A DNA stretch of 21,386 bases. It comes from a virus. The position numbers and the translations under genes are program-made. The stretch covers positions 1 through 21,386 of IMG/VR virus record IMGVR_UViG_3300009159_005369, one strand, 5' to 3'. Positions 4,907 to 21,386 of this stretch are shown in pieces. Each line of letters begins with the position of its first letter. The stretch's first letter is position 1. Below the pieces are notes generated by a model. It made no database searches, was not told where the DNA came from, and saw only the letters and a list, made by a program, of their open reading frames with translations.

Positions 4907-5607
4907 ACAAATTTGTTGGCTATTAGATAATTGAGTATGCGTTTGAACCACCATGCGTGGGCATCTTTATCAAAATGATATGAATTGGGTGCCACTGTTT
5001 CAAATCCAGCTGTGCGAATTTGGGCGTCAAATGTACTGGCTGGATCATAAGGTCCTATGTAACTGAAACCCCAATCTTTTTGATTTTTAATCACGCTGAA
5101 ATCATTGTTGCCATTGAAGAACACATGCGGTATATTTTGGGCAAGAAGTTCTTGATGAAATTGCCAAATTTCGTCATGTGCTTGGTGTGTCTTTTGTTGC
5201 CAATCGAGACCAATTATGTAATTGCGATATCTTTCTTGGGCTTCGGGTGGAACTTGGTCAATACCCGAACCGTTGACTTGATAGGTAATACCATTGTATT
5301 CCCATTCTTCGCGTTCCCAAGTTGACCATTGAATAATGACCAGAATGTCTTGTAGATTATTTTTTTGTTCTCCTAACCAGGCACGAGCAGTTCTCAGTAT
5401 CCGGGCATTTGAACTGGCGCTTTCAGCTTCACACTGAAAACCACACCTCAACGACAGACTCAACAGTTTGCCCCAACTGGTCGCAAGATTTTCTGGGTGT
5501 GGTAATCGCCCTAGATAATATAATTTAGGATCATCTTCGGCAAACGCATGAGCATTTACGGCTTCGGCTGCCGCGGTGTGACTGTCACCATTAACATACA
5601 GAATCAC
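4903..5607 (-). CDS. SGNH/GDSL-like hydrolase domain protein, 234 aa
   Basis: The N-terminus MILYVNGDSHTAAAEA carries a GDSH block with candidate nucleophile Ser9. ASSNARI near residue 63 fits block II, and the C-terminal FDKDAHAWW (212-220) supplies an Asp and His217, as in block V. SGNH proteins usually remove or transfer acyl groups on sugars or lipids; in a phage with surface-sugar genes an O-acetyl group is possible, but many phage members are of unknown activity. The start is a GTG overlapping the upstream stop (GTGA), typical of this window's coupled genes. No signal peptide, so it is cytoplasmic or carried on the virion. Confidence 0.7.
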   Translation of the reverse strand: MILYVNGDSHTAAAEAVNAHAFAEDDPKLYYLGRLPHPENLATSWGKLLSLSLRCGFQCEAESASSNARILRTARAWLGEQKNNLQDILVIIQWSTWEREEWEYNGITYQVNGSGIDQVPPEAQERYRNYIIGLDWQQKTHQAHDEIWQFHQELLAQNIPHVFFNGNNDFSVIKNQKDWGFSYIGPYDPASTFDAQIRTAGFETVAPNSYHFDKDAHAWWFKRILNYLIANKFV

Positions 5608-6080
5608 GACTGTTTAAGAACCTTTATTGTTTCAGCTTCGGCCACACGTTTACGTAAACTGCTTGAACTAAACGAGTGATCACGTCCGTTAAAAATGGCC
5701 TTGATGCCACGGCGTTCACCTTCCTCACGTCCGGTAAAGGCCCTGTGTTCGTATTCCACACCCAACACACGGACATCCAACGGAAGGATCAGCAACAAGT
5801 CAATTAAGTCTTGTTCTGTTTGATAAACAACAACTTCATCTACATAGCGACAAGCGGCCAATTGTATTTGACGTTCTACAATACTTTGTACTGGTGGATT
5901 TTTACTGTCGGGACGGTCAATGGTAGGATCCGTTTGTAGTCCAGCAATCAGGTAATCACAGTGATTCTTAGCTTCGGCCAACATGGCAATATGACCTGCG
6001 TGTAACATATCAAAGGTACTGAAGGTGATGCCAATAGTTTTACCTTCTTCTTTGAGTTTACGGATATGATTGAAAATCAT
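5604..6080 (-). CDS. HxGH nucleotidyltransferase, glycerol-3-phosphate cytidylyltransferase-like
   Basis: A 158-residue Rossmann-type nucleotidyltransferase. GITFSTFDMLHAGH (17-30) carries the HxGH motif (27-30) that binds the nucleotide triphosphate. GLQTDPTIDR and VERQIQLAACRYVDEVVVY follow the TagD/HldE-like pattern, and SSSSLRKR near the C-terminus corresponds to the second ATP/CTP-binding motif. The reaction would be transfer of CMP or AMP to a phosphorylated alcohol or sugar. An NMNAT-like activity cannot be excluded because the superfamily shares these motifs. The frame extends upstream, but the ATG at 6080 forms an ATGA overlap with the preceding stop. It sits between a phage-type protein and the SGNH-like gene. 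Confidence 0.8.
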   Translation of the reverse strand: MIFNHIRKLKEEGKTIGITFSTFDMLHAGHIAMLAEAKNHCDYLIAGLQTDPTIDRPDSKNPPVQSIVERQIQLAACRYVDEVVVYQTEQDLIDLLLILPLDVRVLGVEYEHRAFTGREEGERRGIKAIFNGRDHSFSSSSLRKRVAEAETIKVLKQS

Positions 6081-6478
6081 GATACTTCGGATCTGCCGTC
6101 GCCAATGTTGCGAGTCTTGACCACACGATCGCGTTCGGGATTCATAGCTTCGGCCTGCTCGTAGGTTTCTAATACTATGTTGCGACACACAGCAGTAAAC
6201 CAACGATCTACAATGTCACTGTCGTGGTCTTTGGGGTTCATTTGATATCCAGCACGAACAAGATTGGCCACAAACTTGTCATTCCAGTCAAGTTCAAAAG
6301 CACCATTTTGTATATTCTCAGGATCAACTTCCATGCTGAGAATAGTCACAAAAGGCTCGCCTCGCTCAGTGGCCAATTCCTTGGCAGTTTTTTCTACCTT
6401 CTTGGGCTTGGGTTCGGGCTTGGGTTCAGACTTAACTTCAGGTTGTTTCTTTTTTAAAAATCGATCAAATATGCCCAT
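6077..6478 (-). CDS. Conserved T4-type phage protein, 133 aa, with charged linker
   Basis: The protein has a short helix (MGIFDRFLKKK), then a Lys/Pro/Glu-rich linker (SEPKPEPKPKKVEK, residues 16-30), then a globular domain with PFVTILSMEVDPEN, FELDWNDKFVANLVRAGYQ and VDRWFTAVCRNIVLETYEQ. From memory, close relatives are widespread in T4-like cyanophages and related marine phages, with no assigned function. AAGGA five bases upstream supports the ATG at 6478. Its stop overlaps the next start by ATGA. It lies 11 nt after the nucleotide-sugar dehydrogenase gene and is probably co-transcribed with it. Confidence 0.85.
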   Translation of the reverse strand: MGIFDRFLKKKQPEVKSEPKPEPKPKKVEKTAKELATERGEPFVTILSMEVDPENIQNGAFELDWNDKFVANLVRAGYQMNPKDHDSDIVDRWFTAVCRNIVLETYEQAEAMNPERDRVVKTRNIGDGRSEVS

Positions 6479-6489
6479 AAAGGTCCTTG

Positions 6490-7728
6490 TTAGAGTCTGG
6501 TGTTACCATAGTGTACTACATTAATGCCTGGCATGTCAAGTGGTAATTTGCGCCACGGGTCAACTATTATGCTGCCGCCTTGTATTTGACAGTACGGTTG
6601 GGTGTCTAATTGGTCGCCGGTGTATTCGTATGTAATTTTACGATTGTGTGCCCACAAAAATACAGCAGGAGCATGTACCTCTAACACAACGTTGGTAGGA
6701 TCGTCGGCAAGTGGGTCAACATAGGTGACTGTAAAACCTGCTTCTTTAATATAAAATCCAACCAGGGTAGAGTATGAACCAATACAATATTCAACGTCTG
6801 GCTTGTAGGCTTTACCGTGAATAACGATCGGCAAATTGTTTTCTCGAGCTTGGTCAACTAGGAACAAAGCCAAGTTCTTTGCTTGTATTTCTCTAGCATG
6901 CATGACTGTATCAAACAAGTCATAGCCCACTTGATATTCTTCAGCTAACCAACGTAGGGCAATGTTATCTCTTGGATGGCAAGCGCCTGCATCACCCATA
7001 CCTGCGGTCATGTACTTGGGGCCCATGATACGCATGGTACTTTTGGCCAAGGCATCTGTGACCACGTCAACATTGATATTGCCAATCTTCATAGCAAAGT
7101 CTTGGACCATGTTAACCAGGCCAACTTTGGCACTGATAAATGTGTTGTAGAAAATTTTAATAGCTTCGCACTCGTCCCATGTGCCAACTTCGTAGCGTGG
7201 ATTATTCTGCATGATAGTTTCATACAAGTCTCGAAGTTCGCCAGCAACACCAGTCAAGCTACCATCTTCTGTGCCCAACATAATCATTTCAGGATTGACC
7301 ATGTCCCACTTTACACTGCCCATGGCAATCAAATAAGGATTGTAAACAAATTCATGTTTAGGATCTAATAATGGAATAAACTTTTTACGAGTAGTGCCTG
7401 GCAATACTGTACTAATTAATACTACTTTTTTAGGTGTAGTGGCAAATTGATTGACTTTGTTAATTGCGTCAATGACAGCATCGTGCCCAAAGTCTCGGGG
7501 AGTCATGTGACTTGATGGAACTGATCCATCATACCCTTCGGCATGCGGAGTTGGAACAGCGATAAAAATCCATTCGCTTTCGTTGACTAATTCGTCGATG
7601 TTGCATACTTTTACTGTGTCGCTGACACGTGGATAAATGTCGTAACCACGAACTTCGTGTTTTTCTGCAAATACTTCTGCACAGTCCAAGCCCAGCTTGC
7701 CAATGCCAACAAATCCTATTTTTTTCAT
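6490..7728 (-). CDS. UDP-glucose/GDP-mannose dehydrogenase family protein
   Basis: A 412-residue enzyme of usual family length. The N-terminus has the NAD-binding GIGKLG (8-13); STVLPGTT (106-113) and NTFISAKVGLVN (195-206) are family signatures, with Lys201. The catalytic cysteine lies in GDAGACHPRD (Cys250), a variant of the common GFGGSCFPKD. Members oxidise the C6 alcohol of a nucleotide sugar to a uronic acid with two NAD+. The C-terminal NAD-binding domain is present (VDPLADDPTN, FLWAHNR). In this phage it would supply an acidic sugar for surface polysaccharide. The start has AAGGA six bases upstream. That site can pair with CTTGAG at the end of nadE. Confidence 0.88.
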   Translation of the reverse strand: MKKIGFVGIGKLGLDCAEVFAEKHEVRGYDIYPRVSDTVKVCNIDELVNESEWIFIAVPTPHAEGYDGSVPSSHMTPRDFGHDAVIDAINKVNQFATTPKKVVLISTVLPGTTRKKFIPLLDPKHEFVYNPYLIAMGSVKWDMVNPEMIMLGTEDGSLTGVAGELRDLYETIMQNNPRYEVGTWDECEAIKIFYNTFISAKVGLVNMVQDFAMKIGNINVDVVTDALAKSTMRIMGPKYMTAGMGDAGACHPRDNIALRWLAEEYQVGYDLFDTVMHAREIQAKNLALFLVDQARENNLPIVIHGKAYKPDVEYCIGSYSTLVGFYIKEAGFTVTYVDPLADDPTNVVLEVHAPAVFLWAHNRKITYEYTGDQLDTQPYCQIQGGSIIVDPWRKLPLDMPGINVVHYGNTRL

Positions 7729-8580: not shown

Positions 8581-8813
8581 TGTTTTAAATTCCATATTAA
8601 ATGTTCAATTCTTTCGTGATATCTAAATTCAAATACAGCCTCACCGGGCCCATGATACATTGCTATACCTTCGTACGCATGGCATAACCATAGCCAACGT
8701 CCTGTTATAGCACTACGCTTGGGCCACCAAATAAACTTTAGCCGCCATACTGCTTTGTGATAAAAATGATCATATGTATCCACACCGGGAGAATAGTAAC
8801 CGGCACCCATCAT
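8577..8813 (-). CDS. Small conserved phage-type protein, 78 aa, Trp-rich
   Basis: A 78-residue protein with many aromatic residues: HKAVWRLKFIWWPKRSAITG, RWLWLCHAYEGIAMYHGPGE and VFEFRYHERIEHLIWNLK. From memory, T4-like marine phages carry a similar WWPKRSAITGR protein. No function is known and no clear membrane helix is present. It overlaps the QueE-like gene by ATGA upstream and nadE by ATGA downstream, so it is translated as part of this chain. Confidence 0.8.
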   Translation of the reverse strand: MMGAGYYSPGVDTYDHFYHKAVWRLKFIWWPKRSAITGRWLWLCHAYEGIAMYHGPGEAVFEFRYHERIEHLIWNLKQ

Positions 8814-9676
8814 TTGCCCCAGCCATTACCCCACAAGTCCACATGTAATCTAGGACTGTAGTTAAATCCACGCTCACAACAGATGTTGGCAATGTTTAGT
8901 TTGTTGCTTTCGTATGGATCAACTACACCACCTTGCGGCATTAGGTAAACAACACCTTTAAATCCACCGGCACGGAACGCATCTACAGCCTTGACTGCCT
9001 CGTCCACATGATCTTCAGTTTCCACAACAAATTTGAGATAGGTATGACCAAACGACTGATATTCAGCTACTACATCGGGGCAAATAGCATCTTCCCATGA
9101 CTCGCCTGATGCTGACAATTTAGCACTTACACTAAATGTAATTTCTTTATTTTCACAACCGTAGGTCCAGAAATTGTCAATTAAAAATTGTTTAAAATCA
9201 TCTGACAACGGTTGTGTGCCATTTGTTTCAAATGTGATATTTTTTAAGTCTGCCATGCGTGGATGACTCAATAACTCTCCATAGGCACGTTGCCAACCTA
9301 ACAAGGGTTCGCCACCTGTAATAACCAAGTGAACATCGTTGCCATTATTCTGCCGCCACACACGATTAGGAGTAAGTGCCAGCATGCGTTCAACCAATTC
9401 ATCTGTGGTCAATGTAGGGCTCAAATGTTTAAATGCAGGATGCCAACTTGCGTAACTATCGCAACCTGTTTCCACCAATGGTAAGTCTGTAAACTTATCG
9501 TACATGTGAACAACTTCTGCTACATCGTCTGCACCTGTGCTCTTTTCACCAGGCTTGCAACCAAACCCTGCACAGGTAAAGTTACAACCATAAGTGCGTA
9601 AGAACACGCTAGGCACGCCTACAAAGCGACCTTCGCCTTGTAAGCTATAAAATATTTCTGACACTTTAATTTTCAT
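8810..9676 (-). CDS. QueE-like radical SAM enzyme (7-carboxy-7-deazaguanine synthase family)
   Basis: A 288-residue protein starting MKIKVSEIFYSLQGEG, the QueE N-terminal signature. TGGEPLLGWQRA is the SAM-binding GGE region, and FETNGTQ is also typical. QueE converts 6-carboxy-tetrahydropterin to 7-carboxy-7-deazaguanine, the step after QueD in preQ0 synthesis. The cluster motif is unusual: C31 and C35 are present, but the residue at the normal third position (38) is Phe, and the next cysteines are C40 and one in VETGCDSY. From memory T4-like phages have a clade with this feature. It overlaps the small gene upstream by 11 nt and the next by ATGA. FolE and a QueD-like gene lie elsewhere in the window. 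Confidence 0.85.
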   Translation of the reverse strand: MKIKVSEIFYSLQGEGRFVGVPSVFLRTYGCNFTCAGFGCKPGEKSTGADDVAEVVHMYDKFTDLPLVETGCDSYASWHPAFKHLSPTLTTDELVERMLALTPNRVWRQNNGNDVHLVITGGEPLLGWQRAYGELLSHPRMADLKNITFETNGTQPLSDDFKQFLIDNFWTYGCENKEITFSVSAKLSASGESWEDAICPDVVAEYQSFGHTYLKFVVETEDHVDEAVKAVDAFRAGGFKGVVYLMPQGGVVDPYESNKLNIANICCERGFNYSPRLHVDLWGNGWGK

Positions 9677-10368: not shown

Positions 10369-10397
10369 ATTATACAATATTAATCAGAGTTTGTCAA
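10369..10397 (-). promoter_or_regulatory. Perfect consensus sigma70 promoter, TTGACA-N17-TATAAT
   Basis: The -35 TTGACA (10392-10397) starts right after the TAA of the SDR gene; the -10 TATAAT (10369-10374) follows a 17-bp spacer. The PRTase ATG comes five bases later. It should drive the run from PRTase through nadE. Confidence 0.93.
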
Positions 10398-11336
10398 TTA
10401 TCTTGCAAGCCATTCGGGATTGTTCTGAAACCAATTAACTGTTTGAGTTAACCGTTTTGTGTAGGAATCGGGTGCTTGCCACCCTAGCTCGTATAGTCGA
10501 CCGGGATCAACACTAAAACATAAATCATGTCCAGGGCGATCAACTGGAACCAACCGATAAGATAATTCACGGTCCATTATTTGGGAAATCTGTTGTGCAA
10601 ATTCAAGATTATTGATAAACTTATCGCCGGCGCTATTCCATTTTTCACAACGGGCGGATTGTGTTTGTAGTATAAATCGAGTATGACTGGCCACATCTCC
10701 AGCATAAAACCAACGGCGTCCACCAATTAGTTCACTGGGTCCTACGTGTATGTCCAAGGGTTCATTGTTGAGTAATTTGCGTATGATGATCACAGGCAAA
10801 CGATTGCTTTGGCAACGTGGGCCAAAGGTGTTGTTGATGTGTATAATGCTTGTGGGAATATCAAACGAGTTGGCATAGGCTAGACACAGTTCTTCACCTG
10901 CGGCTTTACCGGCTGCGTAAGGACTGTTGCTGTTGTAGGCATCAGTTGTTTGGCTGTCTTGACCAATGGGCACAGGGCCATATACTTCTCCTGAACTGTA
11001 GTAGACAAATCGATCAACACCGGTGTGTCTGGCGTGTTCCAACAAGTTTAGTGTGCCTAATACATTATCCATGACGGATGCTGTAGGGTTGCTCAAGCTG
11101 TCAGCGGCACTAGGGTTGGCGCCAGCGTGTAAGATAATGTCGGCTTTGGGAAGATTAGTGCAAGGATTTTTAATATCGTGTTCAACAATTTCAATGTCAT
11201 TGACAAATTGTTCTAGTCTAATCATGTTGGTTGAGCCTGGCCTCACCACACAGACCACACGATGATCTTTAACAAATTCTTCTACTAAGTAGTGACCAAT
11301 AAAACCATTGGCGCCAGTGATTAATACTGTTTTCAT
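10398..11336 (-). CDS. NAD(P)-dependent sugar epimerase/reductase (extended SDR)
   Basis: A 312-residue extended SDR. The Rossmann motif is TGANGFIG (7-14), the active-site SSGEVYG (114-120) and YAAGK (Tyr140, Lys144) are present, and the substrate end has NNTFGPR and GGRRWFYAGDVA. Family members epimerise, dehydrate or reduce nucleotide sugars. As last gene of the cassette that holds a 4,6-dehydratase and a 3-dehydrase, it could be the 4-keto reductase that finishes a dideoxysugar; an epimerase role is equally possible. The ATG overlaps the FkbM stop by ATGA. The stop is followed at once by the PRTase promoter. Confidence 0.87.
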   Translation of the reverse strand: MKTVLITGANGFIGHYLVEEFVKDHRVVCVVRPGSTNMIRLEQFVNDIEIVEHDIKNPCTNLPKADIILHAGANPSAADSLSNPTASVMDNVLGTLNLLEHARHTGVDRFVYYSSGEVYGPVPIGQDSQTTDAYNSNSPYAAGKAAGEELCLAYANSFDIPTSIIHINNTFGPRCQSNRLPVIIIRKLLNNEPLDIHVGPSELIGGRRWFYAGDVASHTRFILQTQSARCEKWNSAGDKFINNLEFAQQISQIMDRELSYRLVPVDRPGHDLCFSVDPGRLYELGWQAPDSYTKRLTQTVNWFQNNPEWLAR

Positions 11337-12013
11337 GGCGTGTATTTGTAAACAGTATCAGAATGTTCGTGCATAATTTCTTGATAACCTCGATCACTAA
11401 GAAACTTGTCAAACGTAGTTTTATCAACGCCGTATCTAGCAGACCATGCATCAAACCATTCTACTATGATCACCGGGTGATACCGTTCAATGGTGTCGAC
11501 AGCACCTTGTAAAGCAAAATACTCGTAGCCTTCGATGTCCAACTGGATAAGATCACACCCAGGCAGATTCATGTCATCAATACGCACAGTGGGTATGTTT
11601 CCTTTTTGTCCCACATGCATGCCACCTGCTTCTAGACCATCAGCAGTCGTGTGTCCGTCTAATTCTATAAAGATTTTTTCTTTACCCAGGCATGCTTGAG
11701 TCTTTATTACATTCCAGGGGCAGTTCAATGTAAGGCACAAGAAGTTTATTGGATCTGGTTCAAATGTGTACACTGTGTTAAACCACTTTGCGTATTCTCG
11801 AACATATTGTCCACAATTTCCTCCAGCCTGGATCATGATATTACGGTTAGGAATATGATCCATTAATGTTTTTAAAAACTCCGGCGTCACTGGGTATTCG
11901 ACCATTGCTCTCCAAGTTCCTCGATCATATTTGGGCCAAAATAAAGGATCTACATCCGGTAGCTCTGGTGACGATCTAACCTCGATAATTTTATTCAGTT
12001 CTTCGTTGGTCAT
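11333..12013 (-). CDS. FkbM-family SAM-dependent methyltransferase
   Basis: A 226-residue methyltransferase. QAGGNCGQY (62-70) is the SAM-binding loop, FEPDPIN (84-90) the acidic ribose-binding segment, and LIQLDIEGYEYFAL the DIEGxE motif characteristic of FkbM proteins. These O-methylate sugars in polysaccharides and antibiotics. Here it probably methylates a sugar hydroxyl made by the cassette, which would change receptor or antigen properties. The start overlaps the half-transketolase stop by ATGA and its stop overlaps the SDR start by ATGA. No signal peptide. Confidence 0.87.
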   Translation of the reverse strand: MTNEELNKIIEVRSSPELPDVDPLFWPKYDRGTWRAMVEYPVTPEFLKTLMDHIPNRNIMIQAGGNCGQYVREYAKWFNTVYTFEPDPINFLCLTLNCPWNVIKTQACLGKEKIFIELDGHTTADGLEAGGMHVGQKGNIPTVRIDDMNLPGCDLIQLDIEGYEYFALQGAVDTIERYHPVIIVEWFDAWSARYGVDKTTFDKFLSDRGYQEIMHEHSDTVYKYTP

Positions 12014-12489
12014 GTTCTTCTCACATTTAAATACGCCGGCTGATCACTGTATAAAAATTCTGGCCACATGGATTCCAATTCAGCTACGCTATTGGGTTGA
12101 TAAATTTTAATATTAGGAAATACTTGAACAGCACGGGCAGCATCTTCAGCCCAATGACTGAATCCCAAATGTCCATAGTCTTGATCACGGCCTACACCCA
12201 CTAACTTAACTGGAGCCAGCTCGTGATCTAGGTAGTTGCGTAGCCATTCATACGGACGGAATATCACAAACGGAGTAATGCTGTAGCACACAGGTATCTT
12301 ACCACAGTGTGTAAGCCCTACTGCTGTGCCCAACATAAGTTGTTCTGCGGCTCCTACATTAAGAGCACGGTCGGGCGCTACTTCTCTTGATCGATTCAGC
12401 ACACCAAACCCAAGATCGCCTGACAACAACCATACATCAGGATCTTTGGCCAACGAGTCAGCCATGAGTTCACCAAATCTATTTCTCAT
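12010..12489 (-). CDS. Transketolase-like pyrimidine-binding subunit, short
   Basis: A 159-residue protein covering only the transketolase Pyr domain. NVGAAEQLMLGTAVGL carries the catalytic Glu (49) that activates thiamine diphosphate. SGDLGFGVL and HLGFSHWAEDAA are also typical. A normal C-terminal half-transketolase is about 310 residues and adds a third domain, which is missing here. With the adjacent 202-aa PP subunit it should form a two-subunit ThDP enzyme transferring a two-carbon ketol or acyl unit. The location in a sugar cassette suggests a nucleotide-sugar acceptor rather than pentose phosphates; that is inference. The ATG at 12489 overlaps the upstream stop (ATGA), ruling out the longer frame. 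Confidence 0.83.
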   Translation of the reverse strand: MRNRFGELMADSLAKDPDVWLLSGDLGFGVLNRSREVAPDRALNVGAAEQLMLGTAVGLTHCGKIPVCYSITPFVIFRPYEWLRNYLDHELAPVKLVGVGRDQDYGHLGFSHWAEDAARAVQVFPNIKIYQPNSVAELESMWPEFLYSDQPAYLNVRRT

Positions 12490-13094
12490 AATTGATCCAA
12501 ATCTTCTGGTTTTAATACATAGTAATGTGTGAGTATGCCCTTGGCGAACGCCCAATCTGGCGGTGAAGTTTCACGTATATTGATACGTGGCAAAAAAGCA
12601 CGTAAGCGATTAATAATATATTCCTTGTCAATAAAGTCATAGGCAATCATGCCGTTGACATTTACATACACTTCTAGATTGTCTAACTTGGCTTCGTAGA
12701 TAAAACGTAGTGCTTCCCATATGCTGCCTTCACCACACTCACCGTCACTAATTAAACAATGTACTCGACGACCACGATCGGCCAAGGCATATCCACAGGC
12801 CACTGTGAGTCCCATACCTAGGCTACCAGAGCTACAAGGCAAGCCGTCTTCTATGTTTCTATGTGGATGTACTCCGTGTTTGTGGAACAGGTGCTCGGCA
12901 TCTTTACCTAGATATTTTTCCAACACCACATACCAAGCCAACGCCGCGTGACCTGAACTTAAGATAAATGGTTCGTCGGGCTGTCGATTTTTGTAAATCT
13001 CTTCAATGATATTAACCGCGTTAAGATTAGAGCTTAGGTGCCCAATCTTTTCGCGATAGCTGATATCAATGATTCGTCGTTCAACATCGTTCAT
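12486..13094 (-). CDS. Transketolase-like diphosphate-binding subunit
   Basis: A 202-residue PP-domain subunit. SDGECGEGSIWEALRF to VYVNVNG is the ThDP/Mg motif (normally GDG...N), here with Ser for the first Gly. GHLSSNL, SSGHAALAWY and GSLGMGLTVACGYA match the N-terminal half of transketolase. It is shorter than usual N-terminal halves (about 270). It binds the diphosphate of ThDP, while the partner encoded by the next gene supplies the catalytic Glu. The two genes overlap by ATGA, suiting equal synthesis of both subunits. The preceding RfbH-type gene overlaps it the same way. Substrate not determinable from sequence. Confidence 0.85.
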   Translation of the reverse strand: MNDVERRIIDISYREKIGHLSSNLNAVNIIEEIYKNRQPDEPFILSSGHAALAWYVVLEKYLGKDAEHLFHKHGVHPHRNIEDGLPCSSGSLGMGLTVACGYALADRGRRVHCLISDGECGEGSIWEALRFIYEAKLDNLEVYVNVNGMIAYDFIDKEYIINRLRAFLPRINIRETSPPDWAFAKGILTHYYVLKPEDLDQL

Positions 13095-14410
13095 AGATAT
13101 AAACTCATAAATCCGTCAACCTTCTCTCCAATGTAGGCAATCTGTTCAGGAGTGATAACTGGACTGCATCCGTGGAAGTAGGTGTTCTTCATAGTGAATG
13201 TAGCAACAGGATAGTTGTCACGTGCTGTTGCAGGATCCATCAAATGGCTATATGCAGGTTGCAACATGATATTGCCCGCAAAGTATGGACGTGTCTGTAT
13301 CAAGTTTTCTTCTAAGTAGTCAACAATGTCCATACGAGAAAACGGAGCACCTGCACGGATAGTTAATGGAAACGCAAACCAACTGACATCGGCCTTGTCT
13401 CTAGCACGTGGCAAGTGGAAGAACTGTTCGTACTTTTCATAGATGGCAAACAATAGATTGTAGTTGCGTTGACGTAAAGTGTGTATTTCTGGCAATTTTT
13501 TAAGTTGCTCAAGACCCATGGCCGCTTGTAGTTCAATGGGTTTTAAGTTGTAACCAATTTCATCATACACATACTTGTGATCAAAAATCTGATCTGGCAT
13601 TTCTGGAATCCACTCATTGAATCGTTTGCCGCAGGTGCCACATTTTAACTTGTTGGCCTCAGGCCCTACACAATAGCAACCACGGCCCCATTCACGTAGA
13701 CTACGCACAATGATTTCTTGTTGTGGATCATTCATAGCCACAAAACCACCTTCACCCATGGTCATGTGGTGTGCTGGATAAAAACTGCAACTGGCCATCT
13801 CGCCAAAACTGCCCAGCGGTTTGCCATCATAGGTTGTACCAAGTCCATCACAACAATCTTCTAATAGTATTAGATTGTGTTTATTGACCAGTTCCATCAC
13901 ACGATTCATGTTGGGAGGATTACCCAACACATGTGCAAAGGTTATAATTTTAATGTCTGGATCGTTGGCAAGTATCTGTTCTGCTTGATCTAGATCAATG
14001 TTTAAGGTATCGATTTCAATATCGCAGAACACCGGCGTAAATCCATTTTGTAAGGTCGGATTAAGTGTGGTCGGGAAGCCTGCAATGGGCATCAATACTT
14101 TAGTGCCCGATGGAAAGTTATAGCCACGCTTGCTTTTCATCGCTGCCATCATCAGCAGGTTAGCACTACTGCCCGAGTTGGTCAATACTCCGCGAGTCTT
14201 ACCAAATTCTTTGGGGAACTTTTGTTCAAAGCGTAGACTCTTGTTGCCCATGACTAGCCAACCGTTTAGTAGTGCTTCTGCAGCTGCCACATACTCGTCT
14301 GATGTAAAATGTGGGCCAGCATAGTTAACAAAGTCTTTGCCGGCTACCCAGGTCTTGTCTGCGTGTTTGGCATCGATGTATTTTTTAATGTCTTCTAATA
14401 TCTGTTTCAT
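13091..14410 (-). CDS. RfbH-type CDP-4-keto-6-deoxyglucose 3-dehydrase (DegT family)
   Basis: A 439-residue DegT/DnrJ/EryC1-fold protein. In SFYPAHHMTMGEGG the Schiff-base Lys of aminotransferases is replaced by His (214), as in RfbH/AscC (E1), which uses PMP to remove the 3-hydroxyl. The cysteines GCYC (245, 247) and KCGTC (257, 260) match the [2Fe-2S] ligands of E1, and the length equals RfbH. It therefore should make a 3,6-dideoxy-4-keto sugar, not a simple amino sugar. The E3 reductase partner (RfbI/AscD) is not in the window. The start at 14410 gives an ATGA overlap with the upstream gene; a longer frame to 14434 is less likely. Confidence 0.88.
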   Translation of the reverse strand: MKQILEDIKKYIDAKHADKTWVAGKDFVNYAGPHFTSDEYVAAAEALLNGWLVMGNKSLRFEQKFPKEFGKTRGVLTNSGSSANLLMMAAMKSKRGYNFPSGTKVLMPIAGFPTTLNPTLQNGFTPVFCDIEIDTLNIDLDQAEQILANDPDIKIITFAHVLGNPPNMNRVMELVNKHNLILLEDCCDGLGTTYDGKPLGSFGEMASCSFYPAHHMTMGEGGFVAMNDPQQEIIVRSLREWGRGCYCVGPEANKLKCGTCGKRFNEWIPEMPDQIFDHKYVYDEIGYNLKPIELQAAMGLEQLKKLPEIHTLRQRNYNLLFAIYEKYEQFFHLPRARDKADVSWFAFPLTIRAGAPFSRMDIVDYLEENLIQTRPYFAGNIMLQPAYSHLMDPATARDNYPVATFTMKNTYFHGCSPVITPEQIAYIGEKVDGFMSLYL

Positions 14411-15132
14411 GGTTGAATACCCAGTTGATTGCAAATTTCTTTCATGATGTTTATTACTGCTTGGCTGCCACGGCTACCATGAAAATGTAGTATATGAGCC
14501 TGCTCGATAGGTAAAGCATTCCATCGACCGTGCCAATCTATTACATTTTGATCTAGTGTTCTTAGACGCATAGTTTGATAGGCCATCTCTGGATGTAGTC
14601 TGTCTGAATCAGGAATATCTTGACTCCAGAACATAGCGTTGTGTCTTAACTGATCAAACCCCCAATTGCGGTCTGGGTGGGTTTCTCGTTGGGCCAGCCA
14701 CTTTTCTCCTAGTTCCCATACATCGTCAGACATGGTGTGAGGATAATATTGTATATCATCATTAAAATGATTTGTAAAATCTTTATAACTTCTTGGTTCA
14801 GTATAATTAAATAATCGATATTCAGGAAATCTATCTGAAAACAATTCTGTAGGTTTGATCATAAGCGTGTCAGCTCCTGCCCAGAATATATTGCAAGGTT
14901 CTTTGTGCCATAATTCCTTAATGTCCAACCAATTTTGATAAGTGCAGGTATCGCTGTTGGTAGCAGGATCGGTCCATAATATCGCTTCAAATGTTTCTTT
15001 TACAAAGTGTTCAAAACTGGCCAGTCTCAAACGATACATTTCTTGATAATCCGAATGCAGTTGTGCGCTGTCTTGCCCCATCCAATTTTCTGATATAGGA
15101 CGAACCGAACATACCAAGTAATTCTTTACCAT
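14407..15132 (-). CDS. Glycosyltransferase-like protein, 241 aa
   Basis: A 241-residue soluble protein. IFWAGADTLMIKP (82-94) resembles the nucleotide-sugar/metal-binding DxD-like region of GT-A glycosyltransferases, preceded by a segment EAILWTD typical of such folds. FDQLRHNAMFW and HILHFHGSRG near the C-terminus would fit acceptor or metal-binding parts (His-rich). I cannot place it in a named family. Its location between the RmlB-like and RfbH-type genes supports a role in making or attaching the cassette's sugar. It overlaps the RmlB-like gene by 7 nt and the RfbH-type gene by ATGA. Confidence 0.65.
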   Translation of the reverse strand: MVKNYLVCSVRPISENWMGQDSAQLHSDYQEMYRLRLASFEHFVKETFEAILWTDPATNSDTCTYQNWLDIKELWHKEPCNIFWAGADTLMIKPTELFSDRFPEYRLFNYTEPRSYKDFTNHFNDDIQYYPHTMSDDVWELGEKWLAQRETHPDRNWGFDQLRHNAMFWSQDIPDSDRLHPEMAYQTMRLRTLDQNVIDWHGRWNALPIEQAHILHFHGSRGSQAVINIMKEICNQLGIQP

Positions 15133-16076
15133 ACAAAATTACTCCTATAGTGCTTGACTATTTGGTCTAGTTCTTGATCAAAGTTAGCCGTTGGGTGCCA
15201 TCCTAATTTTTTTAATTTGCTGTCATCAATTGCGTAGCGAACATCTTGCCCTTGTCTAGCACTGGGAGTGGTAAATGTTTCCCAGTTGTTGTTATGGTCA
15301 ACTCCGTAATATAAACATAATATTTTTTTAATTACTTCGTGATTGGGTAATTCAGTATTGCCACTAATATTAAATATTTCATTGGTACACCCAGCATCAA
15401 TAGTAGTTATTACAGCACTGGCGGTATCCTTGGCATGTAACCAGGTTCTCACCGGATTACCGTGATTGTGTAAATCAATTAATTTTCCTAATTCAAGAAA
15501 TTTAATACTTTTGGGTATAAGTTTTTCAACATATTGACCAATGCCATAGTTGTTGGTAGGACGCACAATTACATATTTAATACCATAGGTCCTGGCCCAT
15601 GCTAGTATCAACATGTCGGCAGCGGCCTTTGATGCTGAATAAGGATTGCTAGGTTTTAACAAATCAGTTTCGGTGTGGGCTCCTGAATCAATGTCACCAT
15701 ATACCTCATCTGTTGAAAAATGCAACAATGTTGGTTGTCGTTGAACAGGTTGTTGTCGGATCAATTCCAACAATCGATGTACTCCATTGATGTTGCTGCG
15801 TAGGAATACTTCTGAGCTCATGATTGAATTATCCACATGAGTCTCGGCTGCTGTGTTTATAATATAGTCGCAGTCATACAGTCGATCAATATCATTAATA
15901 TCTTTGTGTACGAATTTAAATGTATTGTATTTTTGAAACTCGTCTAAAAAATCAAAATTGCTGGCATAGGTACCTTTGTCCACACCAATCACATGCCAGC
16001 CACGTGTTAGGCATTGACGTGTGATATGCACTCCTATAAATCCTAAACACCCGGTAACATATACAATTTTTTTCAT
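15126..16076 (-). CDS. RmlB-like nucleotide-sugar 4,6-dehydratase
   Basis: A 316-residue extended SDR. TGCLGFIG (8-15) binds NAD; STDEVYGD (121-128) holds the Asp-Glu pair typical of 4,6-dehydratases; YSASK (Tyr146, Lys150) is catalytic; RPTNNYG and the HNHGNPVRTWLHAKD substrate region follow. The enzyme turns an NDP-hexose into the 4-keto-6-deoxy form, the precursor of deoxysugars. Sequence resembles dTDP-glucose dehydratase; a CDP-glucose role (RfbG-like) would fit the RfbH-type gene better and cannot be excluded. The ATG overlaps the upstream glycosyltransferase stop by ATGA. A little shorter than typical RmlB (about 350). Confidence 0.87.
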   Translation of the reverse strand: MKKIVYVTGCLGFIGVHITRQCLTRGWHVIGVDKGTYASNFDFLDEFQKYNTFKFVHKDINDIDRLYDCDYIINTAAETHVDNSIMSSEVFLRSNINGVHRLLELIRQQPVQRQPTLLHFSTDEVYGDIDSGAHTETDLLKPSNPYSASKAAADMLILAWARTYGIKYVIVRPTNNYGIGQYVEKLIPKSIKFLELGKLIDLHNHGNPVRTWLHAKDTASAVITTIDAGCTNEIFNISGNTELPNHEVIKKILCLYYGVDHNNNWETFTTPSARQGQDVRYAIDDSKLKKLGWHPTANFDQELDQIVKHYRSNFVW

Positions 16077-16906
16077 TGAACCGGTTTTCCTGACCGTATT
16101 TGAAACTGACGCATCTGATGATTAGGGTCGTTGTTGCGTAATTTTTCCCAGGGATCTTGCTCGCCAACCTTTACACGTTGCCACCAGGTTGAATTTGATC
16201 CTAGACTTTTTAGATAGTCGTTGAGTTTTTCGCAATCTTGCATGCGTAACAGTGTTTGAGAGTGATTGTGAAAGTCTCGAGGATTGCTAGGATTGCCTTC
16301 AAGTAATTCTCGTTCTTTGTAAGTAGAATCTAAATTGTTGCCAGTAAGGTCAGCGCGATCATGCAATACACTAACGTCAATACGTTCCCACACATCAATA
16401 CAATAAGCAATTTGACTTAGCCAAGCATCGGTCATTGAATGTAAACTTAAATGGCCAATCACATCTAACCAAGCCTTAGGCACTATGGGAAATATGCTGT
16501 AAGGATGATCATTGTGTGTATGGACTGCTAGTAATTTAAACTCACCTGTGTGTTTGACGATTTTGATGTCCCAGTTGCGACTTTCCATTATGGCATCATC
16601 GTTCCAGAAAAACATCCAATCAGCTGATGAATTTTTAGCCAGGGTATTAACATAGTCGTGAAGTTGACTATATCCCATTGGTTCAAATGATATGGCAGTA
16701 TAATGCACACCCATGTTGTCTAACAACGGTTGCAATTTTTGTTGGAAATGGGCAATACCCACAGCGTCGTCTTTGTCTAGGCCCAGCAAAACCTGTATGC
16801 TGTCTAAATCTTGAGCTTTTTCAAGCAGACCGATCAAACTGCGTGTTAATGCTTCGGTGCGTCCTCGAGTAGGCAGTAGTACTGCAATTTTGTATTCATT
16901 TGACAT
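16073..16906 (-). CDS. GT-A fold glycosyltransferase, 277 aa
   Basis: The protein begins MSNEYKIAVLLPTRGRTEAL, the N-terminal strand and loop of GT-A (family 2-like) transferases, with DADWMFF-type core here as SADWMFFWNDDAIM: the NDD at 102-104 should bind metal and sugar nucleotide. GLDKDDAVG at 42-50 is a second acidic loop. It would add a sugar to a surface or lipid-linked acceptor in the cytoplasm. It is the first gene of the cassette and has TATAAATA eight bases plus upstream of its ATG. The stop overlaps the RmlB-like start by ATGA. The C-terminus (WWQRVKVGEQDPWEKLR) is basic. Confidence 0.8.
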   Translation of the reverse strand: MSNEYKIAVLLPTRGRTEALTRSLIGLLEKAQDLDSIQVLLGLDKDDAVGIAHFQQKLQPLLDNMGVHYTAISFEPMGYSQLHDYVNTLAKNSSADWMFFWNDDAIMESRNWDIKIVKHTGEFKLLAVHTHNDHPYSIFPIVPKAWLDVIGHLSLHSMTDAWLSQIAYCIDVWERIDVSVLHDRADLTGNNLDSTYKERELLEGNPSNPRDFHNHSQTLLRMQDCEKLNDYLKSLGSNSTWWQRVKVGEQDPWEKLRNNDPNHQMRQFQIRSGKPVQ

Positions 16907-16914
16907 AGTGCGAA

Positions 16915-16922
16915 TATTTATA
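16915..16922 (-). promoter_or_regulatory. T4-like late promoter, exact TATAAATA
   Basis: TATAAATA on the minus strand matches the T4 late consensus exactly, in the 50-nt gap before the glycosyltransferase gene, eight bases from its ATG. About 15 bases upstream of it, TATAAT occurs without a good -35. It would place the whole sugar cassette under late control. Confidence 0.6.
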
Positions 16923-16956: not shown

Positions 16957-17127
16957 TCACCAATGATGTATAACGCCTGCTACAATAAAGCAGTTTGTAA
17001 CAATGTATGTGAGTACAACCACAGTGCGAATGCCGGCAATACGATCTGCTTCTAAATCAGTATTGCCGGCTTTTTCTCCCAGGGCCTTGGCCCATAGTCG
17101 CCAAACATTACGCAAATAGGTCTTCAT
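16957..17127 (-). CDS. Small membrane protein, 56 aa, phage-type
   Basis: The protein has a basic N-terminal part (MKTYLRNVWRLWAKALGEKA), an acidic middle (NTDLEADRIAGIR) and a C-terminal hydrophobic helix (VVVLTYIVTNCFIVAGVI) ending HHW. This is a tail-anchored topology with the N-terminus in the cytoplasm. From memory, T4-like marine phages carry a similar protein. The ATG at 17127 overlaps the QueD-like gene by 20 nt; a GTG at 17148 in the same frame is a possible alternative. Function unknown. Confidence 0.78.
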   Translation of the reverse strand: MKTYLRNVWRLWAKALGEKAGNTDLEADRIAGIRTVVVLTYIVTNCFIVAGVIHHW

Positions 17128-17611
17128 TCCATTCACGATGACCTTCACGGAACGCCATGTTACTTTGTGTTTCGCGCACTTCTACACGATAACACCATAA
17201 GCGATCTGCTTCACCTGGGCCCCAATTCTCCGGAATGTAAACACCGTTTACAAACTTATAAAGCATATCGCTTAGTGCTTCACAACCTAATGCCGGTAGA
17301 ATAGTTAGTTTGGCTAACTTACGACGTTCCATCTCTTTGTAAAATTCTAATTCAGGATCATCTTGTGCTACCAAGGTAGTGTGATCAAATTGACTTTCAA
17401 GGATGGCCTTTAATTCTTTAAGTCCACCATAGTCGGCGGCCCAATTACGCACATCTAAATCGTCGGTACCGAAGTAAAACTTCATACTAAACGAATATCC
17501 GTGATTTAAGTTACAATGGCTATCTGCCCTCCATTGTCTATACGCACATGGAAATGCGTCGTGATACTCCTTGGTAGAAGTGTATTTGTATTGCCTAGGT
17601 TGATTTGCCAT
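17108..17611 (-). CDS. QueD-like 6-carboxytetrahydropterin synthase family protein
   Basis: A 167-residue T-fold protein. SHCNLNHGYSFSMKFYF (31-47) aligns with the QueD block CxxxHGH, with the catalytic-type Cys33 and His37 kept but Tyr39 in place of the second His. FDHTTL and YRVEVRET match the conserved Asp-His pair and Glu of the family. The first zinc His (in FxAAH) seems replaced too (AFPCAY). QueD makes 6-carboxy-tetrahydropterin from the FolE product. The gene has a good promoter (17630-17658) and AGGAG six bases before its ATG. Family membership is strong; activity is uncertain because of the altered zinc ligands. Confidence 0.82.
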   Translation of the reverse strand: MANQPRQYKYTSTKEYHDAFPCAYRQWRADSHCNLNHGYSFSMKFYFGTDDLDVRNWAADYGGLKELKAILESQFDHTTLVAQDDPELEFYKEMERRKLAKLTILPALGCEALSDMLYKFVNGVYIPENWGPGEADRLWCYRVEVRETQSNMAFREGHREWNEDLFA

Positions 17612-18239: not shown

Positions 18240-20684
18240 TTAAAAGAATATCCTTAATTCGTTCATCAACCTGTATTGGCCATCTGTTGTGCTCATAGCA
18301 CTCAATCTCAATTGTGTCTGTTTGGTCAATTGATTGGTATAAAGTGCTCGTACATAACCTGTGGTTTGATTCTGTATTGCTAGTTTTTTATTAGTGTACA
18401 CGATATTGCCGGTATTGTCAACGGCAGTAGGCAATTTAGCTTCTACTGATCCAGACAGTACCACTGGTTTGATGCCGGCATACAAGCCAATATCGCCCTC
18501 ACGTCGTGCATTACCAAATCTATAACCAGTTTCCGCCCATGCACCCCACATGTTGTTGACTTGAGTAATTAGTCCTGGGGTTATGTTAGTGGTCACATAC
18601 ATGGCACTGGCCTGTGCTGAAAATCCTCGATTGCGATAAGTGACCACATTGTCCATGATTCCTGCTCCGGTAACTTCTCCCCAAGCACCACCAAACGCAA
18701 TCCACGGATTGGCATTCAAGTAGGTATATTGAGTACCAATGCTCCAGTTGTTATAACTGTAAATTTTAGGCATGCCAATGGTGTATTGTCTAGGCTTGTT
18801 GAGCATGTTCAACCTGTTGCTGTCTTGAGACGCATAATCACTGCCAAGCCTCATGCCATTTACTGTGGTAAGATTGCCGTTGACTAGATATTCAGCATGA
18901 CTGGTCAATTCGTATTGATCGTTGTGTTCGGTATTGTATCCAAATCCATTCATTCGGCTCACTACCATTGGACTTAGATTCAAGTTATAACTACGTCCAG
19001 CCATGTCCATGGCCACTACACTACCGTCACCGAGGTTAACACCAGCTAAGAATCCATTAATTGGAACAGAGCCACGAGCAGTGGCCAAACTCAAATTACC
19101 AATGGGTTTAAACAATGCATCATCGTCAATAACACCCACACCGTTGATGTACGAAGCCACAGTTTTTGCCAAAGCATCGTTGGCCTGGGGAACAGTCATG
19201 TAGGGCCATTTTTGTATCATTAAATTCACGGCTGTTTGTGCAGTGGTTGTACTTTGCGATCCTAAAGCACTGATATACACTGCCAGTTGTCGATCGCTAC
19301 CATTCATAAACCCCACAGCCGACACCAGGTACATCTTACCATCTGGACCTTGCACCACATTCACTGTGTGTTCATTTGAACTACCGCCTGCCATGGTCTT
19401 GACTTGTGCCAAATAATCAGTCAAGACCTTTGCATAAGTGGCCACAAACTTGCCATCTTTGGATTGTAGCAAGAACTGACTACTAGTGCCCGAGTTATCG
19501 CCGCCTGACACCAAAATATCTGTAAGTCCGTCACCGTTGATATCCATCAGTTTGGGATTGTAAGTTGTTCTGGTTGCGGTGTTGTAACCTACCAAAGTTG
19601 TATCAGTCACATCAGTGAACACTCCACTGCCATGATTCTTTAAAAATTGTATTTCGCTATAGTTGTTGTTGACACCGGATGCAACCATGCCAGGTTGACT
19701 GAAAACAACTGCACCGGTCCGCCCACTGTTGTCAAAGTCAAATGCTAGAGCTCGCACGTTATGGCTGGTAGTGATACCCAAGGCCGCCCACTTTGGCAAT
19801 TCAAATCTTGGAGTAGGCAGTACAGCTATCTGGTTAAACGACAGTTGATCGGCACCGTTGATCGACCATCCCCATAACTTAGTGGCATTTCCTATGGCGC
19901 CACTGGGTCCTGAGTCAGTTGTAATAAAAGTGCTGGATCCATTGCCCAAGAAGTCGGCCACAGCAACGCCACTACCACTGGGTCCGCCTACCTGTGAGTT
20001 GGTGTAGGTAGTGAAGCTGTTGACCCGATTGTTTATTCCTAAAGTAGTGCGATTACCTGTGTCTAGTATGAGAAAATCTGCAAAACCATCGCGATTAAGA
20101 TCATACACAGCCGAGTCGTGACTGTTGACATTGGTTATATTGATAGTTTGTCTGCTAAAATATGTGCCGTTGTTGGTATAAACATACGCAGGACCTGTTA
20201 ATCCAGCGTCATCGGTATAAGGAGCCACCAACATGCCGGTCTTGCCAGTGTTGAACCAATCAGCAAACTTTATGGTGTTGGTACCTAAGATAACATTGGT
20301 ATCACCTGGAAACCACTGTGCTGTTTTATCAACCAATTGCCCGCCTTGCCAGCTCAGCATAGTAATGCGACTGTTCACATGATCGGTTGAGGTAAACGGT
20401 TGTGTATCGAAGCCTGCGACTATTACGTCTTGACCTGACCCGGATATTGATGCAGTATAAGTATCGCCGACAAAATATTTGTTGGCATTATTGACCAAAG
20501 GATCCACCGTGGCCACACGCATAGGAGTTGCATAAGGAACCTCGGATCGTAAATATGATCCGCCAACATTGCCGGGTGTACCACTACCACCACCGCCTCC
20601 CCCACCTCCACAAGCAGACAATAAAAAAACTGTGGACGCGGCCATGGCCATGGCACTGCGTTTTAATATTTGCGTTTGTTTCAC
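18240..20684 (-). CDS. Surface lipoprotein with FG-GAP/VCBS repeats and C-terminal beta-barrel
   Basis: An 814-residue exported protein. The basic start and hydrophobic core (MKQTQILKRSAMAMAAS and on) end in the lipobox LLSAC, with Cys25 for lipidation, followed by eight glycines. FG-GAP/VCBS-type Ca-binding motifs include DLNRDGFADF (195-204), DFDNSGRTGA (316-325) and DINGDGLTDI (381-390), suggesting a beta-propeller. From about residue 560 the sequence alternates aromatic and polar residues like outer-membrane strands and ends LRIFF, a terminal Phe as in barrel proteins. It should sit in the host outer membrane, like a lipidated autotransporter, perhaps changing adsorption. Its GTG start overlaps the stop of a 9-codon leader (GTGA). 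By far the largest gene here and bacterial in style. Confidence 0.85.
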   Translation of the reverse strand: MKQTQILKRSAMAMAASTVFLLSACGGGGGGGGSGTPGNVGGSYLRSEVPYATPMRVATVDPLVNNANKYFVGDTYTASISGSGQDVIVAGFDTQPFTSTDHVNSRITMLSWQGGQLVDKTAQWFPGDTNVILGTNTIKFADWFNTGKTGMLVAPYTDDAGLTGPAYVYTNNGTYFSRQTINITNVNSHDSAVYDLNRDGFADFLILDTGNRTTLGINNRVNSFTTYTNSQVGGPSGSGVAVADFLGNGSSTFITTDSGPSGAIGNATKLWGWSINGADQLSFNQIAVLPTPRFELPKWAALGITTSHNVRALAFDFDNSGRTGAVVFSQPGMVASGVNNNYSEIQFLKNHGSGVFTDVTDTTLVGYNTATRTTYNPKLMDINGDGLTDILVSGGDNSGTSSQFLLQSKDGKFVATYAKVLTDYLAQVKTMAGGSSNEHTVNVVQGPDGKMYLVSAVGFMNGSDRQLAVYISALGSQSTTTAQTAVNLMIQKWPYMTVPQANDALAKTVASYINGVGVIDDDALFKPIGNLSLATARGSVPINGFLAGVNLGDGSVVAMDMAGRSYNLNLSPMVVSRMNGFGYNTEHNDQYELTSHAEYLVNGNLTTVNGMRLGSDYASQDSNRLNMLNKPRQYTIGMPKIYSYNNWSIGTQYTYLNANPWIAFGGAWGEVTGAGIMDNVVTYRNRGFSAQASAMYVTTNITPGLITQVNNMWGAWAETGYRFGNARREGDIGLYAGIKPVVLSGSVEAKLPTAVDNTGNIVYTNKKLAIQNQTTGYVRALYTNQLTKQTQLRLSAMSTTDGQYRLMNELRIFF

Positions 20685-20775: not shown

Positions 20776-21000
20776 TTAGGCTCGTTGTCCTGTTAACCAA
20801 GCATCGACACGGTCTTCGGCTTCTTCTTGACTCAAGGCTGGCACCATAATCTCTACTGGGCCGCCCATGGTATGATTCATAGTGTATGGAATTGGATTAC
20901 CATTAAAAATGATTTCTTCCATTTCGCGGAATACCAAAAACTCTTGTAGGTTTTTAGCACGATTGATCAGTTGATCTGCTTGTTCTTTGGCGTTGGTCAT
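20776..21000 (-). CDS. Small hypothetical protein, 74 aa
   Basis: A 74-residue acidic soluble protein: helical N-terminus (MTNAKEQADQLINRAKNLQE), a middle with NGNPIPYTMNHTMGGPVEIM and an acidic C-terminal helix (SQEEAEDRVDAWLTGQRA). No recognised domain. Its ATG overlaps the FolE stop by ATGA, so it is translated with that gene. The 30-nt region after its stop leads into the lipoprotein promoter, with no clear terminator. Confidence 0.75.
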   Translation of the reverse strand: MTNAKEQADQLINRAKNLQEFLVFREMEEIIFNGNPIPYTMNHTMGGPVEIMVPALSQEEAEDRVDAWLTGQRA

Positions 21001-21386
21001 CTTGGGGCAAAGTCCTGTTGTAGTTTAATATTGTCCATAAACTCTTTTTTAGTTCCTGGGTCCGTTTGAAAGCTACCACGCAATACTGTGGTCTGTGTCA
21101 GACTTGAGTGTGCCATAATACCGCGATTTTCACAACACCCGTGTGTGGCCTGTATGTACACACCAACGTTTTCCGACTCTGTGGCCCGCATTATTTCTCT
21201 TGCGATGTCGTTACATAATTCTTCTTGAAGTGTGCCACGACGAGCACACCACTGAGCGATCCTAGTATATTTAGACAGGCCAATAAGTTTATTAGCGGCG
21301 ATGATTCCGATGTAAGCGACACCAGACACAGGCTGATGATGATGACTGCACATAGAACGCAGTTCGCTACGAACAACAAGCATACC
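20997..21386 (-). CDS. folE: GTP cyclohydrolase I, 5' end cut by window edge
   Basis: The last 129 codons of a GTP cyclohydrolase I. SMCSHHHQPVSG corresponds to the family's CEHH zinc motif (Cys and His ligands), LIGLSKYTRIAQWCARR is the signature helix, and THGCCENRG gives the third zinc Cys. The enzyme converts GTP to dihydroneopterin triphosphate, the entry to folate and to the QueD-QueE preQ0 route. The frame runs on past the window, so the visible ATG at 21383 is not taken as the start; full-length proteins have about 60-90 further residues. The gene is followed by an ATGA-coupled small gene. With QueD- and QueE-like genes in the window, deazaguanine synthesis is the likely purpose. Confidence 0.92.
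   Translation of the reverse strand, partial: GMLVVRSELRSMCSHHHQPVSGVAYIGIIAANKLIGLSKYTRIAQWCARRGTLQEELCNDIAREIMRATESENVGVYIQATHGCCENRGIMAHSSLTQTTVLRGSFQTDPGTKKEFMDNIKLQQDFAPR

Follow-up and report, generated by a model that had tools for sequence, protein, structure and literature searches.

We describe an eight-gene cassette on the minus strand (16906 to 10398) of a freshwater T4-like phage, the 21,386-base virus record IMGVR_UViG_3300009159_005369 (the whole of which we call the window). In its chemistry the cassette comes closest to yersiniose synthesis (PMC12247030, PMC4753412). In Yersinia O-antigens, yersiniose A is made from a CDP-sugar by E1/E3, YerE and a reductase. A 2025 review lists three classes of thiamine diphosphate (ThDP)-dependent enzymes that branch keto sugars, namely YerE-like decarboxylases, alpha-KADH2 enzymes, which are pyruvate-dehydrogenase-E1 (PDH-E1)-like, and split-gene transketolases, the last as a proposal only, in Streptomyces (PMC12247030). 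The alpha-KADH2 class is known from avilamycin, paulomycin, kosinostatin and kibdelomycin. The transketolases (miharamycin type) are known only from Streptomyces, with 13 putative sequences in the review and no in vitro demonstration (PMC12247030). Sugar clusters are also well known in cyanophages and pelagimyophages, where they are read as surface modification (PMC7824862, PMC7029224).

The window's cassette has in common with yersiniose A synthesis a 4,6-dehydratase, an E1-type 3-dehydrase, a ThDP carboligase and a short-chain dehydrogenase/reductase (SDR) in one locus. It differs in that its dehydratase is dTDP-type instead of CDP-type, that a split transketolase-like enzyme stands in place of YerE, that an FkbM methyltransferase is added, that no E3 or nucleotidyltransferase was found and that the genome is a phage's. 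YerE-like enzymes, which resemble acetolactate synthase (AHAS), occur in relatives only; the relatives with module D carry a fused YerE/AHAS-like enzyme. The miharamycin-type transketolases are likewise two-subunit and lie in a keto-sugar cluster, but, compared by description, the phage family lacks the C-terminal domain, sits beside RfbH or 4,6-dehydratase genes and is widespread in phages. The alpha-KADH2 enzymes belong to another ThDP class than the window's own; their counterparts are the PDH-E1 alpha/beta-like pairs of related phages (module C), whose proteins are shorter. As here, the sugar and lipopolysaccharide clusters of cyanophages and pelagimyophages, which are T4-like phages too, contain glycosyltransferase and SDR genes and in some cases RfbH-like ones, but the cyanophage loci checked hold no ThDP branching enzyme.

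We consider it likely that the cassette is a late-expressed phage operon that makes and transfers a branched 3,6-dideoxyhexose. In the proposed pathway, the 4,6-dehydratase (DH46) would convert host NDP-glucose, probably dTDP-glucose, to a 4-keto-6-deoxy sugar, and the 3-dehydrase (RfbH) would strip the 3-hydroxyl with the help of host electron carriers. The transketolase-like pair (TKn and TKp) would then attach a two-carbon ketol unit, donated by a ketose phosphate or hydroxypyruvate, at the C4 ketone to give a tertiary alcohol. Because the window's enzyme is transketolase-like, not YerE-like, the expected branch is hydroxyacetyl and not acetyl. Going by family membership, the SDR may reduce a keto group or epimerise the sugar, and FkbM may O-methylate it. 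Finally, two glycosyltransferases (GTa and GTb) would couple the sugar to a target at the surface of the host or on the virion. We infer the reactions, the donor, the order of the late steps and the target. Related phages would use acetyl-transferring ThDP enzymes in the same place, which would make the branch a diversified feature.

Comparison among loci makes the branched sugar a well-supported prediction. A search of viral contigs with RfbH returned 78 loci, and the gene order of the cassette recurs in many of them where contig ends allow. All but two could be classified by what follows RfbH: 21 have a transketolase-type pair, 24 a split AHAS-type pair, 7 a fused AHAS-type enzyme, 16 a PDH-E1-type pair and 8 a small SDR only (the loci are partly redundant, and the class labels were set by BLAST thresholds, so that a few ‘none’ labels, e.g. 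L065 and L188, are probably miscalled). On the evidence of gene content and alignment, enzymes of three unrelated ThDP classes replace one another in the slot after RfbH, one class being transketolase-like, one acetolactate-synthase/YerE-like and one pyruvate-dehydrogenase-E1-like. In related phages DNA identity is 75–94% on both flanks of the swapped slot. Between loci L032 and L068, for example, the flanks are 82–94% identical, homology ends at 9331 in both (the end of RfbH) and it restarts at 10485 and 11207, respectively. The pairs L058/L069 and L008/L013 show the same slot-limited replacement, and the differences between close relatives are mainly confined to this slot.

The association also holds in reverse. 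When ThDP genes served as queries, with each distinct protein counted once and a minimum of 70% identity to the query, RfbH lay within 5 kb in 23/26 transketolase, 30/30 PDH and 30/31 AHAS loci. In a phylogeny of 136 RfbH proteins the ThDP class changes at least 40 times, and well-supported branches alone force 7–9 changes per main class; the tree set includes loci fetched by the ThDP queries, which makes its proportion with a ThDP gene (127 of 136) a biased frequency. A branching role is supported because the phage slot holds exactly the three classes listed in the review (PMC12247030), whereas a common function in sugar-phosphate metabolism at large is disfavoured because it would leave the exchange of classes unexplained. 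For the fused AHAS-like phage enzyme the second-best PDB match is JanthE (8rph), a characterised YerE-like enzyme (PMC12188165), and the PDH-E1-like phage pairs are shortened to about 206 and 177 aa. The original prediction had proposed that the ThDP enzyme downstream of the 3-dehydrase branches a 4-keto-3,6-dideoxy sugar; the YerE/AHAS-like and PDH-E1-like enzymes of the slot lend this proposal strong and independent support, and a check for homologues from a different known pathway turned up none.

Some loci carry further genes in this region. In L001, L023 and 11 more loci, RfbH is separated from the split AHAS-like pair by a class I/II aminotransferase (388 aa), which could be a source of the 2-oxo acid donor. 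In L050, L051 and L070, RfbH is followed by a NeuB-like synthase, a HAD phosphatase-like gene and a full-length acetolactate-synthase-like enzyme; these loci may combine a nonulosonate with a branched sugar.

The window's own ThDP enzyme belongs to an unusual group. In all 94 viral loci measured, TKp stops after its PYR domain (158–160 aa, counted from the start of the match to the stop codon). Bacterial homologues fall into a short group (22 loci, 39–54% identity, 155–158 aa) and a long group that has the C-terminal domain (27 loci, 25–37% identity, 286–310 aa). An extended SDR lies within 3 kb in 17/22 short loci against 6/27 long ones (Fisher p 2e-4). The clean split in length and the proximity of SDRs mark the short form as a family of its own, linked to nucleotide sugars. 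A second type of phage operon lacks RfbH and consists of a glycosyltransferase, an SDR, FkbM, TKn, TKp and a 4,6-dehydratase (L196, 5740–10043; about 30 similar loci), and L150 and L151 each carry two transketolase pairs, one with about 85% and the other with about 54% identity to that of the window. TKp residue 108 is Leu in the window and Asp in L062 and L063, and varies between clades of the family. By motif it corresponds to the Asp with which yeast transketolase senses its acceptor, and it is a possible switch of acceptor specificity.

The catalytic residues fit the assigned families. DH46 scores 295 bits with the dTDP-type model TIGR01181, below its cut-off of 365, against 72 bits with the CDP-type model. 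Its catalytic Asp-Glu pair (STDEVYG) is kept in 46/46 relatives and YxxxK in all. By its residues it is thus an RmlB-like 4,6-dehydratase; it looks dTDP-type, but with a score below the cut-off its nucleotide may be dTDP or CDP. RfbH exceeds the curated NF011936 cut-off (433 against 423 bits), and the closest solved structure is E1, the CDP-4-keto-6-deoxyglucose-3-dehydrase (3bcx/3bb8). As in E1, with which its AHH motif aligns, His replaces the Lys that binds pyridoxal phosphate (58/58 relatives), and the Cys-rich loop of 2Fe-2S ligands (CYC...C..C) is conserved, one Cys aligning via a small insertion. TKn matches the transketolase PP domain (PF13292/PF00456), with transketolase 3ooy and the split transketolase 6yak as PDB matches; its Mg-ThDP motif SDG...NxNG and a His are invariant among relatives. 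Likewise invariant are the catalytic Glu of TKp (GAAEQ) and the GHA and SH motifs of the pair, and the alignment of TKp to the split transketolase 6yaj covers the PYR domain alone. The terminal SDR retains Tyr-Lys, but in all relatives read the dehydratase Asp is replaced (Gly/Ala-Glu), which is why we ruled it out as a second 4,6-dehydratase.

Structure prediction assigned the two glycosyltransferases. The AlphaFold model of GTa (pLDDT 87) has RmlT and TarP as its best Foldseek matches (E 4e-10) and appears GT2-like. GTb gave no match in the profile libraries; its model (pLDDT 74) matches glycogenin (Foldseek E 1e-5, prob 1.0, TM about 0.5), and its GT8/glycogenin-like assignment carries less confidence than that of GTa. 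Ratios of nonsynonymous to synonymous substitution rates (dN/dS) indicate purifying selection on all eight cassette genes, strongest for RfbH (0.03–0.05) and the ThDP pair (mostly 0.03–0.05 for both subunits), followed by the SDR (0.05–0.08) and FkbM (0.11–0.19).

The eight genes run in the order GTa, DH46, GTb, RfbH, TKn, TKp, FkbM, SDR (Table 1). Four-nucleotide ATGA overlaps join GTa/DH46, GTb/RfbH, RfbH/TKn, TKn/TKp, TKp/FkbM and FkbM/SDR, and a 7-nt overlap (ATGGTAA) joins DH46 and GTb. Seven gapless overlaps in a row are not chance. The starts used are ATG 14410 for RfbH, of which a longer reading-frame version begins at an upstream TTG, and ATG 12489 for TKp, with a product of 159 aa. 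The unbroken coupling of the genes had been predicted, as had the families (two glycosyltransferases, now with GT-A folds by structure prediction, 4,6-dehydratase, RfbH, ThDP pair, FkbM and SDR), and both were borne out. The original prediction had also placed the ThDP pair exactly between the 3-dehydrase and the SDR. The pair does adjoin RfbH, but the FkbM gene separates it from the SDR.

Table 1. Cassette genes and promoter motifs, with positions in the window.
Feature	Position	Strand	Evidence
GTa, GT2-like glycosyltransferase (putative), cassette gene 1	16073..16906	-	phrog_14945 glycosyltransferase 1.2e-9; AlphaFold/Foldseek
DH46, NDP-glucose 4,6-dehydratase, dTDP type (probable)	15126..16076	-	TIGR01181 295 bits; best PDB 2hun
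GTb, GT8/glycogenin-like GT-A glycosyltransferase (putative)	14407..15132	-	structure prediction and Foldseek
RfbH, RfbH/E1-type 3-dehydrase, pyridoxamine phosphate (PMP)-dependent	13091..14410	-	NF011936 433 bits; best PDB E1 3bcx/3bb8
TKn, transketolase-like PP-domain subunit, 202 aa	12486..13094	-	PF13292/PF00456; PDB 3ooy, 6yak
TKp, transketolase-like PYR-domain subunit, 159 aa, without C-terminal domain	12010..12489	-	PF02779 2e-15; PDB 6yaj
FkbM-family methyltransferase	11333..12013	-	PF05050 1e-12; TIGR01444 above cut-off
Extended SDR, probable reductase or epimerase	10398..11336	-	PF01370 1e-39
T4-type late promoter core TATAAATA, 8 nt upstream of the GTa ATG	16915..16922	-	exact motif match
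Sigma-70 promoter TTGACA-17-TATAAT of the next gene (phosphoribosyltransferase)	10369..10397	-	12/12 matches

The cassette opens with a T4-type late promoter core. The exact motif TATAAATA occurs once in the window, where 1.4 matches are expected by chance, so that alone it is not significant; across distinct relatives, however, it lies upstream of GTa in 13/21 against 9/808 other open reading frames. In the capsid region of three relatives, the shorter core ATAAATA favours the coding strand by 16 to 0. It also precedes the first gene of rearranged cassettes, whether these are led by glycosyltransferase c9 (18/20) or by RfbH (6/11). The exact motif was not found ahead of the gp23 capsid gene; only ATAAATA is common to the structural region. 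Directly after the cassette, the sigma-70 promoter with all 12 matches precedes a phosphoribosyltransferase gene and, as a predicted element, marks the end of the late cassette. With a late motif at its start and a sigma-70 promoter after its end, the cassette is probably one late transcription unit. Late expression, in turn, would make it more likely that the sugar decorates the virion, or the cell surface at a late stage of infection, than that it serves to keep out other phages early on.

As to sugar supply, ten large relatives (168–453 kb; contigs may be incomplete) yielded no PF00483 nucleotidyltransferase, no E3-type reductase (PF00175) and no PF01943 (Wzx-type) flippase. Their absence there points to the use of NDP-glucose and reductants from the host, and against the export of a new polysaccharide. 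The cassette thus probably draws on host NDP-glucose, and an E3 reductase could be supplied by the host.

How else might the cassette be read? Its product could be an unbranched 3,6-dideoxyhexose (abequose- or paratose-like, and methylated), with the ThDP pair acting as an ordinary split transketolase and providing the infected cell with sugar phosphates. Such a product would suit the eight loci in which a small SDR but no ThDP enzyme follows RfbH, as well as the isolated cyanophages that have RfbH-like genes without ThDP genes. Yet the AHAS-like and PDH-E1-like enzymes in the same slot cannot produce ketose phosphates, and TKp lacks the C-terminal domain, whereas the more distant bacterial pairs have about 300 aa between the start of the match and the stop codon. 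An unbranched product therefore seems to us quite unlikely, and the family-wide loss of the C-terminal domain, together with the other ThDP classes in the slot, led us to reject an ordinary transketolase as first choice. Alternatively, the ThDP enzyme may branch another position or another sugar (e.g. a 4-keto-6-deoxy sugar before 3-deoxygenation), with RfbH on a parallel branch of the pathway. Most of the distant transketolase loci, which hold the pair with a 4,6-dehydratase, SDR and FkbM but no RfbH, point this way, as do the loci with two pairs (L150/L151). In the window's clade, however, RfbH stands directly before the pair (22/26 RfbH-linked transketolase loci), and swaps change the ThDP class yet retain RfbH; we regard this alternative as unlikely. 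Host contamination, with a contig that is misassigned or chimeric and includes a piece of a host O-antigen locus, draws on the fact that all cassette families are also known from bacterial polysaccharide loci. It was rejected and is extremely improbable, already close to refuted: the identical order recurs in dozens of viral contigs of up to 353 kb, a T4-type gp23 capsid gene is present in 7/10 large relatives against 0/14 control cellular genomes, and the cassette opens with a phage-type late promoter motif.

Several points weigh against a branched 3,6-dideoxyhexose itself. The loci were retrieved with queries from the cassette, so their counts are not an unbiased survey. A dTDP-type dehydratase beside a CDP-type 3-dehydrase is an unusual pairing, no E3-type reductase was found in the ten relatives, and ketone-accepting transketolases are only a proposal in the literature (PMC12247030). 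Moreover, among transketolase homologues below 70% identity, RfbH is present in only 3/33 loci and a 4,6-dehydratase in 31/33; the family is therefore not confined to 3,6-dideoxy sugars, and its acceptor need not be 3-deoxy.

Within the phage records and literature searched, we found no earlier description of such a cassette in a phage. Among 50,697 phage records TKn has no close relative (best about 34% identity, mostly unannotated or cell-like contigs), and the best RfbH match is 42.5% identical, with matches mainly from cyanophages whose loci have no ThDP gene. A DNA-level search of these records gave one short, uninformative match, and a jumbo-phage survey mentions neither ‘thiamine’ nor ‘transketolase’ in its main text. 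We would give an even chance to a broader picture in which the late dideoxysugar operon of T4-like freshwater phages has an exchangeable ‘branching slot’, filled from three unrelated ThDP classes and giving each phage a sugar with a different branch, and including a new family of split transketolases without the C-terminal domain that add hydroxyacetyl to nucleotide-bound keto sugars. The branching of keto sugars by transketolases is so far a proposal for Streptomyces clusters alone, where in vitro proof is lacking (PMC12247030). The short family offers hundreds of compact pairs, many beside acceptor-making enzymes, and the swaps with the other two branching classes provide matched controls whose masses should be easy to tell apart (+60 vs +44). 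The exchange suggests that phages actively diversify the branched sugar, as they do tail fibres, and late expression points to the virion, or the cell surface late in infection, as its site.

Other genes of the window, all on the minus strand, deserve mention. An 814-aa protein (18240–20684) has a lipoprotein-like signal, a Gly run, FG-GAP repeats (PF13517) and an outer-membrane-protein-like C-terminus (...LRIFF); it is kept near the cassette in relatives and is odd for a phage. Part of a 7-deazaguanine pathway is present as GTP cyclohydrolase I (20997–21383), a PTPS/QueD-like gene (17108–17611) and a radical-SAM QueE-like gene (8810–9676). An rfaE/HldE-type nucleotidyltransferase (5604–6203) and a UDP-glucose-dehydrogenase-like gene (6490–7728) are of kinds that have both been reported from pelagimyophages. 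An NAD synthase (PF02540, 7789–8595) lies beside the cassette in relatives as well.

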